Of a stretch of DNA of 64,000 nt, positions 41,637 to 47,202 are shown piece by piece. Below the pieces are notes generated by a model. That model had not been told where the DNA came from. It saw nothing but the letters and a program-made list of their open reading frames with translations, and did no database searches. The stretch is taken from NCBI GenBank assembly GCA_944324135.1, contig CALUVE010000003.1:1-64000 (forward strand), read 5' to 3'. The translations under genes were made by a program, and so were the position numbers. This DNA comes from Candidatus Gastranaerophilales bacterium. Lineage in GTDB: Bacteria; Cyanobacteriota; Vampirovibrionia; Gastranaerophilales; Gastranaerophilaceae. Within the stretch, counting starts at the first letter, position 1; the number at the start of each line of letters is the position of its first letter.

Positions 41637-42056
41637 ATGAAAAAAATATATTCTTTAATTTTATTTTTAACAATAATCTGCGCAGGTACTGCGATTGGAA
41701 TGGAGGCAGACCGTTTTGTGGAGAATTTTATGACCTGTACACCGTATACGGAGCGTAACAGCAGTCAAATGTTCGGGATGCAGGTTGATTCTGCGCTGGA
41801 AGTGCTTGGATTCCGAGGCGGGTTGTGCGGATTCAGGAGCACAATCAACACTCCGTCCGGCAGTGCAAAAATTGAGTGCAATTTTACTGAAGAGCAGATT
41901 ATGGAACTTATTTCAGCAATGGAGAATAATCGTTCGGAAATAGAAACATTTGCTCAGCAGGGGCTGGATTCTAATCCAAATATTGATAGTAATCCTGCTG
42001 TAGTTATTTTCAACAAATATTTTACGGACAGCTCTGTTTGTTCCGTTACAAATTAA
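41637..42056 (+). CDS. Small secreted protein, unknown
   Basis: The 139-residue protein starts MKKIYSLILFLTIICAGTAIG, a signal peptide. The mature part has four Cys (MTCTPYTERN, GLCGFRST, KIECNFT, SSVCSVTN), likely two disulfides in the periplasm. No family is recognised. A similar small exported Cys-containing protein follows at 42130, so the two may be related in role. No strong ribosome site is visible (AAGAAGAG, about 12 nt upstream). Confidence 0.6.
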   Translation: MKKIYSLILFLTIICAGTAIGMEADRFVENFMTCTPYTERNSSQMFGMQVDSALEVLGFRGGLCGFRSTINTPSGSAKIECNFTEEQIMELISAMENNRSEIETFAQQGLDSNPNIDSNPAVVIFNKYFTDSSVCSVTN

Positions 42057-42129
42057 AATATTTAGTAGACAATTCTCAAAAGCAGTGCTATAATTCAGGT
42101 AAATTTAGTGTTTATTAATTAGGAGTTAT

Positions 42130-42516
42130 ATGTTTAACCGGATTGTAGTTCTTAGTGTTGTTATATTTACCTGTTGTGTCGGATTAGTTGCAGAAGCGTG
42201 CAATGTGCCTCAATTCCATTGTGAGGGATTTGATAACGCATACATATATTCTCCTGAACAGGATGCGGAAGAAAGCTGTAAATGGCTGAACGGTACTGAG
42301 GATTACAATGTGTGCCTGAATGAATACAACAAAATGTTCAGGGCTTACGAAAACGGTGAATGTACTCCGATTTTAAGTGAAAAACATACCTCAGAAGATG
42401 GTGAAACTGTTTGTAAAGTCTATTATTTCGGCGACAGAGTTCTTCAGCGAATAAATTGTAAAGGGCCAGATGCCGGAGTATGGGAAGAAAAAGTTAAAGA
42501 AAAATTTGATATCTAG
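42130..42516 (+). CDS. Small secreted Cys-rich protein, unknown
   Basis: The 128-residue protein starts MFNRIVVLSVVIFTCCVGLVAEA, a signal peptide; TTAGGAG precedes the ATG. The mature part contains six Cys (ACN, FHCEGF, ESCKWLN, NVCLN, GECTP, TVCKVYYFGDRV, INCKG) in a low-complexity spacing that fits disulfide bonding. No family is recognised. It has no obvious operon partner beyond the 41637 gene. Confidence 0.6.
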   Translation: MFNRIVVLSVVIFTCCVGLVAEACNVPQFHCEGFDNAYIYSPEQDAEESCKWLNGTEDYNVCLNEYNKMFRAYENGECTPILSEKHTSEDGETVCKVYYFGDRVLQRINCKGPDAGVWEEKVKEKFDI

Positions 42517-42554: not shown

Positions 42555-43178
42555 TTACAGACAAAGTTTTTGATATTCGCAGAATTTGCAGGCGTTTGAT
42601 TTCTGCGGAAAGTTTGTTGTATTTATTTTGGCTAAAATCTCGCTGAGCCTTTTTTCATATTCAATTTCTGTATCTTTAGAAAATTCTATGATTTTATTTT
42701 CATTATTTTTCAAATCAATATAGACAAATTTTAAGCAGTGAGTATTCAGGATTTTGGCGGCGCAGTAGAGATAAATCATTGTTTGAAAATCGAATTCAGG
42801 ATTTTGTGGAATAGCACCGGTTTTGTAGTCAAGAATATAGTAAAAGTTTTCATCTTTCATCAAGGCATCAAGCCTGCCGCCAACCCAGCAATCTTTTATT
42901 TTTGCGGAAATGGTGTATTCGGAATTGACGTATTGTTTGTTAAAAAATTCATTTGTTTTCAATTTTTGCCAGACGATAGACTCTTCATTAGAGAGAGCTT
43001 TTTCAAGTTTTGTTATGTCGGCACCTTTGAGGTAATAGTTTGCTAGTGCGTGAATTTTTTTGCCGCGTTCAAAATTAGAAGCCTTTTGAGGCATTGAGAT
43101 TTTTTTTATGTATTTGTATTCAAATTTTTTCGGGCAATCTGCAAATGTTTTTACCATATAAGGTGAAAAATCACTCAT
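42555..43178 (-). CDS. Standalone RecB/AddB/Cas4-like Fe-S nuclease
   Basis: The 207-residue protein has the PD-(D/E)xK nuclease core: His43 (KKIHALANYY), Asp104 in GGRLDALMK, then Asp117 and Lys119 in ILDYKTG. Four cysteines, Cys15 and Cys197/200/206 in CKFCEYQKLC, match the 4Fe-4S cluster arrangement of AddB C-termini and Cas4. It is therefore a free-standing nuclease domain of the RecB family. It overlaps the large helicase gene upstream by 8 bp, so the two are translationally coupled and probably act together on DNA ends. No cas genes or CRISPR array are present. Confidence 0.85.
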   Translation of the reverse strand: MSDFSPYMVKTFADCPKKFEYKYIKKISMPQKASNFERGKKIHALANYYLKGADITKLEKALSNEESIVWQKLKTNEFFNKQYVNSEYTISAKIKDCWVGGRLDALMKDENFYYILDYKTGAIPQNPEFDFQTMIYLYCAAKILNTHCLKFVYIDLKNNENKIIEFSKDTEIEYEKRLSEILAKINTTNFPQKSNACKFCEYQKLCL

Positions 43179-46100
43179 TGTGCACCTCTTTCAATATTTC
43201 ACAGAAGATAAGATTTGGTTCTTGCTGTACAATTTTTTCGAATGATTTTGACTTAGTGCTGACCGTAAAGAAGAGTTTTCTTTTTGCGCGGGTTATTGCG
43301 ACGTACAAAAGTCTCAGGTTTTCGGAGAGAAGCTCCTGCTTGAGGTCAAATTCTGTTTTGGCTTTGTAATTCGGGTTGAGTCGTCTTATATTTTCCATAA
43401 AATCTGAGGATTTCAGTTTTATTTGGCTGAAGTCAAGAGTCAGATTTTTTTCGGTCATTTCAGGGATAAAAACGTAATCAAATTCATCCCCTTTGGATTT
43501 GTGGAGTGTCATAATCTGGACTTTACCCTCCAAAAATTCGCGGTTTGATTCATCTTCTTCGGAGAAAAACTTAAATCCGCTCAAAGACGGCTTTTTCGAT
43601 AATTCGCCGAGTCTTTCCGCTATGTAATTAAGATTTTTATTTGTTGTGCTTATTCTTTTGATTAATGTTGAAATTAAGTATACGTTGGATTTTTCTATTT
43701 CGCTTTTGAAATAGTACCGACCGATTTTTATGGCGAGTTCCTCCGGTGTGAGGGAGGAAAATGACAGCCAGTATGTTAAATCCCAGTAGAATTGTTCAAG
43801 GTATTGATTGTTTAGATTGTCACAATTCATTTGAACAAACGGGGTTTCAAGTTTACGGATTTCTGACCCCATTCTCTGTTTGTAAAAACCGAGTTCTGCA
43901 AGAATTTCGTAATTATCCGCAATTACATTATTATCAAACGGAGTCAGTATCATTTGCAAAACTGCAAAGATGCCTTTAAAGATGGATTTTTGTTCAAGAC
44001 ATTCACTTCTGGTAATGCTTTTTAAGCCGCTGTCGTTTACAAAATTCTGCCATTGCGCGACCTGATAGTTGTTTCTGAGAAGTATTCCGACAGTTGCTTT
44101 AGGTTCTTTTTCAAAAGTGTTTTTTATAACTTTCAGGATATAATTTCTTTCTTCAAAGTAATTTTCAAAAATTTTAGCGCTTACAGCATTTTTCTGAACC
44201 GGATTTTTCCCCTCAACCGGATGCATAAAAATTTTGAAGAAAGCTTTTTGGGTTTCCGGATTTGTTTCTGCCCAGTTTACAAGTGTGTTTGCAAGTTTCC
44301 AGACCTCTTCAGTGCAGCGTTGTGAGCAATCCATGCTGACGCTGTTGCTTTCTGTGATAAATTTTCTGAATCCCTCTACATCCGCATTAGAAAATGTTGT
44401 TGTGATTGCCTGATTTATGTCTCCGCAGCGGATTAAATTTTTGTGTTTCGCACTCAAAAGATTAATCAGACGCTGCTGGATTGAGGAGGAATCCTGCGCC
44501 TCATCTTCTATAATATAATGACAGATTTCCTGATAGTGTTTCAGAATATCTTCATTTTCTTCAAGTAGTTTGACAGAGGAAATCAACATGTCATCATAGT
44601 CGATAAGGTTTCCTTCTCCCATAATTCTTTGATATTCATTAAAAAATTCAAAGAACTTTTTAACCTTGACATCCGTAATATTTTCAGGCGGAATTCCTTG
44701 CGAGATTTTAAATACAGAAACAGCTCTATCAAATTCTTCAGTCTCAGTTTTTTTGAGTTTCAATTTGGTGGAAATTTCTCGAACTATTCTTGTGCGTTGA
44801 GAGTCATCGCAAATTTCGAAATCAGAAGAGAGTCCGAGCCGCTCAAAATTTCCGTTCTCTTTCAAAATTCTGAGCGCAAGCCCGTGAATTGTGCTGATAT
44901 TCGGCAGCTGTGAAGAATTTTGCCTTATGTTTTTTATTCTTTCCCTGAAATTTCTTGCCGCAGATTCCATATATGTCATTACAAAAATATTTTCCGGATT
45001 AACGCCGTTATCAAGCAGTTTTACGATTAGGGCAAGCAGGATAGTTGTTTTGCCAGCCCCGGGAACTGCGGAGATTGCCATTCTGCCGGAGTTGTATTCC
45101 AATACAGGCTTCTGGTCGTCTCTCGGAATTATCCGGAAAGCTTTTGTCTCTGTTTTTTCCTCCGGAATATTTTCTTCCGCTATATAGTTCTCAATTCCGC
45201 CGAGGTTTTCCACTCCGTTGCCGTCAAAGAGACTTGAGAATGTATAAATGTGTTCATCCGCGCAAAGGGTTAGTTTCCTTAAAATTCTTGCTGTTTTGTC
45301 TTTCCCGAGTTCTAAATTATCATCTATGGTAAATTCATCTTTGTGCCAGTCTTTTTGAAATACCCACGCGTTATACAATGGGCCTGTGTCGCTTTTTATC
45401 CATTCTGAACTCGAGGTATCGAGCCAGAACTGGTATTTTGTACGGATTTGGTTGTCAATAATTTTTTGCGGTGTTCCTATAACTAAATCTCTGTCAGAAA
45501 GTTCAAGTGTGGAATATGGATTTTCTGAGATTATGGAATTTTCTATCTGGGTTAGAATTTCCTGTTTTCTATCTATAAATTTGTCTTTATAAATGTTTTC
45601 AAAATCCTGCAGCTGTTTTATGAAAAAGTTGAATTTTTTCAAATCTTCCGGCGCAATAAACGTGAAGTCGCAAAGTTCCGTGAAGATTTCGTAAACCTGT
45701 TCAGATAATTTAAGATTGTCTGTCTCAAGTTTGTTTTTGAGCTTTAGCAGTTTTGAGTATTTTTCATTGTGCTCTTCCCGTGCAAATTTGTATTCTATTA
45801 ATGTTTTATTCTCAGAAAAATTCTCAAGAATATCTTTCAGGTATTTGACAGGAATCCCGAGAAAGTCTGATAGTATAACCCTTAAATCAAATTCAGTCAG
45901 GTCATTTTTAAATTCAGATGTGAGTTTTAAAATGTTTAATGACGCGAGTACAAGTTTGTTCTGTATAAGTTTTTCATTACCGGAAAGGTAGACAATATTC
46001 AAATTATTAAGGCTTTCAGACAGGGTGAATTTCAGCATATCATCCACAACAGGAGTGATTATTGAAATTTCTGACGGAAGTACGTTTTTGCAGAGGAGTT

Positions 46101-47037
46101 CTTTGATTTTTTTCGCAGTCAAATCTATCATTTCAGCGCGTTTTGATGGTGATGATACTGAAAAATGTTTCAGATGTGTTTTGGTATCTTCTTTTACATT
46201 TGTGAATAAAATTTCTGCGTCATCTTTTAGATTTGAATCCTCAGGAATTTTTTGAACCTGTTCTTTGAATAAATCTTCAAACCCGAATACAGAGGATTTG
46301 TCTGCACTTAAATATCCGGCACGGCTTGAACCTTTTGTGTCAAATGCTATGAAAACATCTTTCAATTGAGGAGCAATTGCTCTTACAAAATCCATTGCAG
46401 CCGGCGTTAGTTCGTCCGCATCATCTATAAACAGATACTCAATATTCTTGAAGTAATCTGTGTTTTTATAAATGTATTTGAAAACAAGGGTCTGCCTTAA
46501 ATAGTCAAAATCTCTCATCTCCAGAGTTGTGGATAAGAATTTTTTCAAGGCTGACTTTGCATCTTCAGCAAAACTTTCTTTCAAAATCCCTGCGCGGTAG
46601 TCAATTTCTTCATCACTCAAATTGTTCTGGACTATCAGTGAATATCTTCTAAAAAGCTGGTGCAGGAGAGATTTTTTTGAGTTGTAACCTTTGAACTTGA
46701 TATCTTTTAGAATATCTTTCATTATAAATTGCGAAACCTCAAGACCTGCGAGGTTTGGCAAAACTTCCGGGTTATTAAACGGGTTTACATTTTCCAGCAC
46801 TGCCCAGTTGTCAATCACTGAATTATATACAAGCGAGAAAAATGAATGTATCTCCAATTTTTCGTGTGCTTTAATTTTTAGCAACTTATGAACCCGTTGT
46901 GTAAAGTTTTCTTTCAAAGAAGAATTTTGAACGAGCACAAGAATTTTTGAAGAATCTACATTTTCATTCAAAAGTTTTGCATAATTTTCAACAAGCAAAT
47001 CAGTCTTTTTCGATGATATAGAGCCGTTTATCAGCAA
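43171..47037 (-). CDS. Two-lobed UvrD/AddA-type helicase with degenerate N-terminal half
   Basis: The 1288-residue protein has two SF1-like modules. The C-terminal module carries an active helicase: Walker A AVPGAGKTT (Lys663), motif Ia VMTYMESAARNFRERI, Walker B IIEDEAQDSS (near 845), CGDINQAI, MTLHKSKGDEFDYVFIPE and LYVAITRAKRKLFF. The N-terminal half (1-600) has a degenerate P-loop (INGSISSKKT, with the usual GKT reading KKT), then helicase-like LVLVQNSSLKENF, LFIDDADELTPAAMDFV and VFIAFDTKG. This is the design of AddB joined to AddA. With the adjacent nuclease it resembles an AddAB-type DNA-end resection complex. A role in double-strand break repair is inferred. Confidence 0.8.
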   Translation of the reverse strand: MLINGSISSKKTDLLVENYAKLLNENVDSSKILVLVQNSSLKENFTQRVHKLLKIKAHEKLEIHSFFSLVYNSVIDNWAVLENVNPFNNPEVLPNLAGLEVSQFIMKDILKDIKFKGYNSKKSLLHQLFRRYSLIVQNNLSDEEIDYRAGILKESFAEDAKSALKKFLSTTLEMRDFDYLRQTLVFKYIYKNTDYFKNIEYLFIDDADELTPAAMDFVRAIAPQLKDVFIAFDTKGSSRAGYLSADKSSVFGFEDLFKEQVQKIPEDSNLKDDAEILFTNVKEDTKTHLKHFSVSSPSKRAEMIDLTAKKIKELLCKNVLPSEISIITPVVDDMLKFTLSESLNNLNIVYLSGNEKLIQNKLVLASLNILKLTSEFKNDLTEFDLRVILSDFLGIPVKYLKDILENFSENKTLIEYKFAREEHNEKYSKLLKLKNKLETDNLKLSEQVYEIFTELCDFTFIAPEDLKKFNFFIKQLQDFENIYKDKFIDRKQEILTQIENSIISENPYSTLELSDRDLVIGTPQKIIDNQIRTKYQFWLDTSSSEWIKSDTGPLYNAWVFQKDWHKDEFTIDDNLELGKDKTARILRKLTLCADEHIYTFSSLFDGNGVENLGGIENYIAEENIPEEKTETKAFRIIPRDDQKPVLEYNSGRMAISAVPGAGKTTILLALIVKLLDNGVNPENIFVMTYMESAARNFRERIKNIRQNSSQLPNISTIHGLALRILKENGNFERLGLSSDFEICDDSQRTRIVREISTKLKLKKTETEEFDRAVSVFKISQGIPPENITDVKVKKFFEFFNEYQRIMGEGNLIDYDDMLISSVKLLEENEDILKHYQEICHYIIEDEAQDSSSIQQRLINLLSAKHKNLIRCGDINQAITTTFSNADVEGFRKFITESNSVSMDCSQRCTEEVWKLANTLVNWAETNPETQKAFFKIFMHPVEGKNPVQKNAVSAKIFENYFEERNYILKVIKNTFEKEPKATVGILLRNNYQVAQWQNFVNDSGLKSITRSECLEQKSIFKGIFAVLQMILTPFDNNVIADNYEILAELGFYKQRMGSEIRKLETPFVQMNCDNLNNQYLEQFYWDLTYWLSFSSLTPEELAIKIGRYYFKSEIEKSNVYLISTLIKRISTTNKNLNYIAERLGELSKKPSLSGFKFFSEEDESNREFLEGKVQIMTLHKSKGDEFDYVFIPEMTEKNLTLDFSQIKLKSSDFMENIRRLNPNYKAKTEFDLKQELLSENLRLLYVAITRAKRKLFFTVSTKSKSFEKIVQQEPNLIFCEILKEVHNE

Positions 47038-47202
47038 AAGTTTCCCGCTCCTTTTCCTTATAGATTATCTTAACATAAAAATTTTCTGTATTATTCAAAA
47101 TCTAATCTAAATAAACTATTGCATTTTTCTGAAATTTAATATACTATTCAGATATCAAATAAAGGTTAATGTACTATTTAGACAAATTTGCAGGAGGTTA
47201 AG

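Follow-up and report, generated by a model that had tools for sequence, protein, structure and literature searches.

A helicase fused from two SF1 modules and its neighbouring nuclease point to an unrecognised candidate machine for trimming DNA ends in Cyanobacteriota

How are broken DNA ends processed in bacteria of the cyanobacterial phylum, where RecBCD is often missing? According to a published survey, the model cyanobacteria each lack recB, recC or recD (Synechocystis 6803 and Nostoc 7120 lack E. coli-type recB and recC, Synechococcus 7942 and 7002 lack recC and recD), whereas marine Prochlorococcus and Synechococcus have recBCD (PMC5101192). What processes double-strand breaks in the model strains has therefore been unclear. 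One paper asserts the presence of AddAB in S. elongatus (PMC10269773). In this context, a pair of genes found in a gut relative of cyanobacteria, Candidatus Gastranaerophilales bacterium (contig CALUVE010000003.1 of assembly GCA_944324135.1), deserves attention. The window, that is, the whole stretch of 64,000 nucleotides analysed here, carries a long helicase gene overlapping a small nuclease gene. The original prediction described them as a compact AddAB-like system, with a helicase made of an inactive N-terminal and an active C-terminal SF1 half, a separate RecB-type nuclease with four Cys ligands and an 8-bp gene overlap, and proposed that this split, single-helicase design may be a distinct end-resection machine.

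A two-module helicase and a separate nuclease

The described anatomy of the locus is confirmed by the present analysis. The helicase gene, at 43171-47037 on the minus strand, encodes a protein of 1,288 aa and begins with a TTG start codon located 10 nt after an AAGGAG sequence (47048-47053). The nuclease gene, at 42555-43178 (-), encodes a protein of 207 aa. The two genes overlap by 8 bp, ATGAGTGA, at 43171-43178 (-), which makes translational coupling likely. On the other strand, at 41637-42516 (+), two small ORFs of 139 and 128 aa show signal-peptide-like starts and have no Pfam match over cut-off. The C-terminal half of the helicase (aa 637-1288; 43171-45129, -) scores 180 bits to PF00580 and has all SF1 motifs. 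Its Walker A motif, AVPGAGKT (aa 657-664; 45046-45069, -), is invariant in all 18 aligned rows of homologues, and the motifs DEAQD, GDxNQAI, SQR, MTLHKSKGDEF and RLLYVAITRA are conserved. The N-terminal half (aa 1-620; 45178-47037, -), taken alone, still scores 28.7 bits to PF00580 (cut-off 23), so that it is a helicase module by sequence too. Its P-loop, GSISSKKT (aa 5-12; 47002-47025, -), is broken by replacement of the second G by K, and none of 17 homologues has the GxxxxGK[ST] form, nor does any Gastranaerophilales member or homologue in the fused family.

A search of PDB sequences with a profile of the N-half returned nothing, and its fold was therefore examined by structure prediction. 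The AF2 model (pLDDT 85, pTM 0.83) is that of an SF1 helicase. In a Foldseek search, UvrD, PcrA and Rep come first by E-value, whereas by TM-score over the query the closest chains are AddB (4cei_B, 0.64) and AdnA/AdnB (0.62-0.64), with rmsd of about 7-8. The absence of a helicase fold in this half had been named beforehand as an outcome that would overturn the prediction, and the fold is recovered. The relative placement of the two modules is not well predicted (pTM 0.62) and Foldseek searches with the 1,200-aa model aligned mainly one helicase module at a time; hence no claim is made on how the modules pack. The second protein is a stand-alone PD-(D/E)XK nuclease of the Cas4/RecB type (PF12705, 1.9e-21), with invariant catalytic residues D104, D117 and K119 and with Cys at positions 15, 197, 200 and 206. 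C15, C200 and C206 are invariant while C197 is lost in a few relatives.

The host genome (1.82 Mb, 99.9% complete) belongs with Gastranaerophilales. It contains no other PDDEXK_1 protein and its only further UvrD-type helicases are PcrA and a 970-aa protein in which a PHP-domain-like region is fused to a UvrD helicase (locus L033, 4430-7342, +; L and G numbers denote the loci and genomes sampled here). RecC is absent. The finding of a canonical RecBCD or AddAB elsewhere in the genome had also been set in advance as a refutation of the prediction, and none is present as far as these profiles can see. Of the roughly 130 sampled genomes of the same genus and family, all have a strong match to the N-half profile except G130 (no hit) and G300 and G305 (one genus, marginal hits only), and the one genome of a second family of the order also has it. 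G130, G300 and G305 carry another helicase-nuclease, a single-chain UvrD-PDDEXK protein of about 1,020 aa. Many relatives carry such single-chain proteins of about 1,010-1,060 aa with a C-terminal Cys motif (L060:7251-10289, -, and L061-L068); they are patchily distributed and absent from the window's genome. Those of about 1,010 aa were at first considered as possible AddB, but they have a helicase at the N-terminus and a nuclease at the C-terminus of one chain, and they form a separate clade. In a sample of 27 Gastranaerophilales with the fused helicase, the nuclease gene is adjacent in 21, lies elsewhere in 4 and was not found in 2. A literature search on recombination in Gastranaerophilales, limited to open-licence papers, found none on point.

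Three separate genes in cyanobacteria, an operon in other lineages

In photosynthetic cyanobacteria, the N-half profile hits stand-alone proteins of about 660-750 aa. Profile-profile alignment of the N-half is end to end with these proteins (603 of about 620 columns, E 1e-25), and it is also end to end with the corresponding protein of the operons described below (E 6e-40). The stand-alone cyanobacterial examples scanned have no Pfam or NCBIfam family over cut-off. Most of these cyanobacterial homologues have an intact Walker A, so that, in correction of the initial view, it is the fused form and most operon forms that have lost the P-loop. However, their motif II reads DDxDD rather than DExxD, and binding of ATP without normal hydrolysis is plausible, as an inference. 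In one cyanobacterium (G194; L105:8017-10071, -) the N-like protein is split over two adjacent ORFs, either a natural split or a frameshift. In L106, L109, L110, L111 and L220, the N-like gene lies near the same gene of about 420-450 aa, whose product ends with ISPSAVATYRNMNE and is PcxA-like. Cyanobacteria also carry a UvrD of about 770 aa, other than PcrA, with the motif MAVSAVPGAGKS, and a PD-(D/E)XK nuclease of about 270 aa. The three genes are scattered in cyanobacteria, although in G303 (C1:1499568-1503786) the UvrD and nuclease genes are convergent neighbours, a remnant or a new linkage.

In a helicase tree of 55 rows, 13 fused C-halves, 10 cyanobacterial UvrD and 7 operon-type UvrD form one clade (100/99), apart from PcrA, PHP-UvrD, UvrD-PDDEXK and AddA of the same phylum. 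Profile scores agree, since a profile of cyanobacterial UvrD alone gives 220-286 bits to the fused proteins and at most 153 to PcrA. The nuclease tree, intended to establish orthology, is less clear. Operon and cyanobacterial nucleases form a clade (95/99), but the Gastranaerophilales nucleases are its neighbour with weak support only (71/47). Two-way profile searches link the three groups and do not reach the nuclease domains of UvrD-PDDEXK, AddA or AddB at 1e-6; nevertheless, a separate ORF in the AddAB region of G214 and two other small cyanobacterial nucleases score 27-40 bits, close to the weakest true links.

In lineages of the phylum without photosystem I genes, the three genes stand together in one orientation and in the order N, UvrD, nuclease, with overlapping or nearly touching ends (L209, L210, L211, L212, L213 and L214). 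This is the order seen in the window. In L210, L211, L213 and L214 the next gene is recJ, over the curated cut-off each time. A photosynthetic cyanobacterium (L195) has recJ on the same strand beyond the nuclease, with one ORF between them. The operon N proteins also have degenerate P-loops, except that of L215, an N gene without the partners beside it, which keeps GEHKSGKT; the P-loop was probably lost more than once, as an inference.

Among 156 sampled genomes of the phylum outside the class, 100 carry at least two of the three cyanobacterial-type genes, 95 carry all three, and helicase and nuclease occur together in 97. None of the 100 has RecC (PF04257). Conversely, 40 genomes have RecC and none of those carries the cyanobacterial forms (Fisher p 1.5e-24). 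The p-value treats genomes as independent, whereas 35 of the 40 belong to one family, so that the real number of replacements is small. One contaminated draft (G070) has both RecC and operon-type genes. Three photosynthetic genomes (G102, G258 and G168) have neither the three-gene set nor RecC, and what processes their DNA ends is not known.

A candidate machine acting on DNA ends

The interpretation of the pair as AddAB-like is only partly supported. One active and one inactive SF1 module in a single chain, a separate Fe-S-type nuclease gene and the lack of canonical RecBCD or AddAB in the genome are supported, whereas AddAB-like ancestry is not. Moreover, the design is not an isolated curiosity, a point missed in the original prediction. 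It is the fused form of three genes widespread across Cyanobacteriota, so that the separate nuclease is probably the ancestral state and the helicase fusion is derived.

The explanation favoured here, with fair but not full confidence, is that the pair represents the fused form of a three-component helicase-nuclease system of Cyanobacteriota acting on double-stranded DNA ends in the way AddAB, AdnAB or RecBCD do. The sequences themselves demonstrate a degenerate SF1 module (N), a complete UvrD-type 3'-5' helicase (H) and the active-site set of a Cas4/RecB-type nuclease (X), together with the orthology of the two helicase modules, the operon linkage and the co-occurrence; orthology of the nuclease is supported but weaker, and the joint action of the three proteins as one complex on DNA ends, the AddB/RecC part of N and the cooperation of RecJ are deductions. 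In this view, N and H would sit side by side on a DNA end. H would translocate 3'-5' and unwind, while N, which would be unable to hydrolyse ATP in the usual way, would guide or scan the other strand. X would cut the emerging strand with RecJ as a companion 5' exonuclease, giving 3' ssDNA for RecA or degrading foreign linear DNA. ATP-dependent unwinding and degradation from dsDNA ends were not assayed, and resection itself is inferred. Against this view stand the weak tree support for the Gastranaerophilales nucleases, the genomes in which the nuclease lies elsewhere or was not found, the scattering of the three genes in cyanobacteria, the poorly predicted placement of the two modules and the few independent events behind the exclusion of RecC. 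A broader possibility, judged somewhat more likely than not, may be envisaged. The system would be a fourth family of bacterial DNA-end resection machine, phylum-wide in Cyanobacteriota and ancestral there as an operon beside recJ, dispersed into three unlinked genes in photosynthetic cyanobacteria, fused in Gastranaerophilales, and exchanged for RecBCD in the small-genome photosynthetic family that looks like the marine picocyanobacteria. Helicase-nuclease resection machines are already known; this is a distinct family with its own architecture and, in a literature search limited to open-licence papers, an undescribed N subunit, its absence outside Cyanobacteriota not having been examined. 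The fused protein acts as a Rosetta stone, tying together three unlinked cyanobacterial genes, one of them with no family name in Pfam or NCBIfam, into a single candidate machine that can be tested at once in genetically tractable strains.

Published genetic data bear on this view. In a transposon screen in S. elongatus, loss of ago, cas4, uvrD, recJcy, rpoD2 or a PD-(D/E)XK gene raised maintenance of a foreign plasmid and natural transformation (PMC10653904). That is what loss of an end-degrading machine would do, and the proposed system offers one explanation for why uvrD, cas4-like and recJ mutants behave alike, with practical use for cyanobacterial genetic engineering. The genes of the screen were not matched to the present families, and a sampled genome that looks S. 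elongatus-like (G053) has two non-PcrA UvrD and two PDDEXK proteins. The same data could suggest that the system is primarily a defence or anti-plasmid device degrading foreign DNA with Argonaute or Cas4-type partners rather than a repair machine, and the helicase half does give GajB-class hits in PADLOC. This reading is considered unlikely. The near-universal, mostly single-copy presence across the phylum is unlike that of patchy defence genes, the PADLOC hits reflect the shared UvrD fold, and recJ is found in the neighbourhood. However, RecBCD itself also degrades foreign DNA, so that the two readings overlap.

Two other possibilities appear still less probable. It may be imagined that the pair is a rearranged AddAB, in which AddB and AddA were fused, the two nuclease domains were lost and one was re-encoded as a separate gene. 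The architecture is the same in outline, the N-half model aligns best by TM-score to AddB and AdnA/AdnB, and the order N-H-X recalls addB-addA. Yet the active half is outside the AddA rows of the tree, NCBIfam addA matches are far below cut-off and there is no addB match. In addition, canonical-looking AddB and AddA pairs (L187:1265-7352, L188:3109-9457, L189:918-6799 and L190) co-exist with the fused helicase in two Gastranaerophilales (G167 and G278) and with the three-gene set in two cyanobacteria (G100 and G214). Finally, that a UvrD-like accessory helicase and a solo-Cas4-type nuclease would be neighbours by chance is the most doubtful view. The 4 genomes of 27 in which the genes are unlinked, the 2 without an identified nuclease and the weak nuclease tree would agree with it, but the adjacency in 21 of 27, the same adjacency in the separate operon lineages and the joint occurrence in 97 of 100 cyanobacteria argue against it.

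Comparison with known systems

The cyanobacterial uvrD, cas4-like and recJcy genes of the S. elongatus screen (PMC10653904) represent the same three kinds of protein and share one phenotype, but they are not described as one machine in the papers found and the N protein of about 700 aa was not named. Solo-Cas4 and Cas4-like proteins of pfam12705 are also small stand-alone nucleases with a four-Cys Fe-S pattern, and Cas4-like domains fused to UvrD helicases, the single-chain form, have been reported (PMC5704561). The present nuclease falls just below the NCBIfam cas4 cut-off (63.8 vs 65 bits) and is partnered with a specific helicase gene. No cas-like gene was recognised by reading among the neighbouring ORFs, cas1 not having been sought in the whole genome, and a CRISPR Cas4 label was rejected. 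The Gabija GajB label was rejected too, because the neighbour is a PDDEXK_1 nuclease and not an OLD-type GajA.

With the RecBCD, AddAB and AdnAB functional class, the pair shares two SF1 modules, at least one of them active, plus a RecB-type nuclease. As in AdnAB of mycobacteria, two SF1 modules accompany a PD-(D/E)XK nuclease, and the N-half model and the nuclease profile match AdnA/AdnB chains; however, AdnA and AdnB each carry helicase and nuclease domains, whereas here there is one nuclease, encoded separately. As in RecBCD, an inactive SF1 module (as RecC) stands beside a UvrD-type helicase (as RecB) with a RecB-type nuclease, and the distribution is complementary to that of RecC in the sample, but no RecD motor is seen at the locus, the nuclease is not fused and RecC is absent. 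AddAB of the B. subtilis type likewise combines one inactive SF1 subunit, one active 3'-5' SF1 helicase and an Fe-S PD-(D/E)XK nuclease. Concerning AddB, alignments of the N-half profile to three AddB N-termini were weak and local, the closest family being that of the partner UvrD, while the predicted fold is compatible with AddB; these observations leave homology between the two undecided. In contrast, the active half is not in the AddA clade, and no nuclease domain is present in the 1,288-aa protein, whereas in AddAB C-terminal nuclease domains are fused to both subunits; here N and H are fused and the only nuclease is encoded by a separate gene. The lack of these two features lowers the likelihood that the system is AddAB, but not that it works like AddAB.
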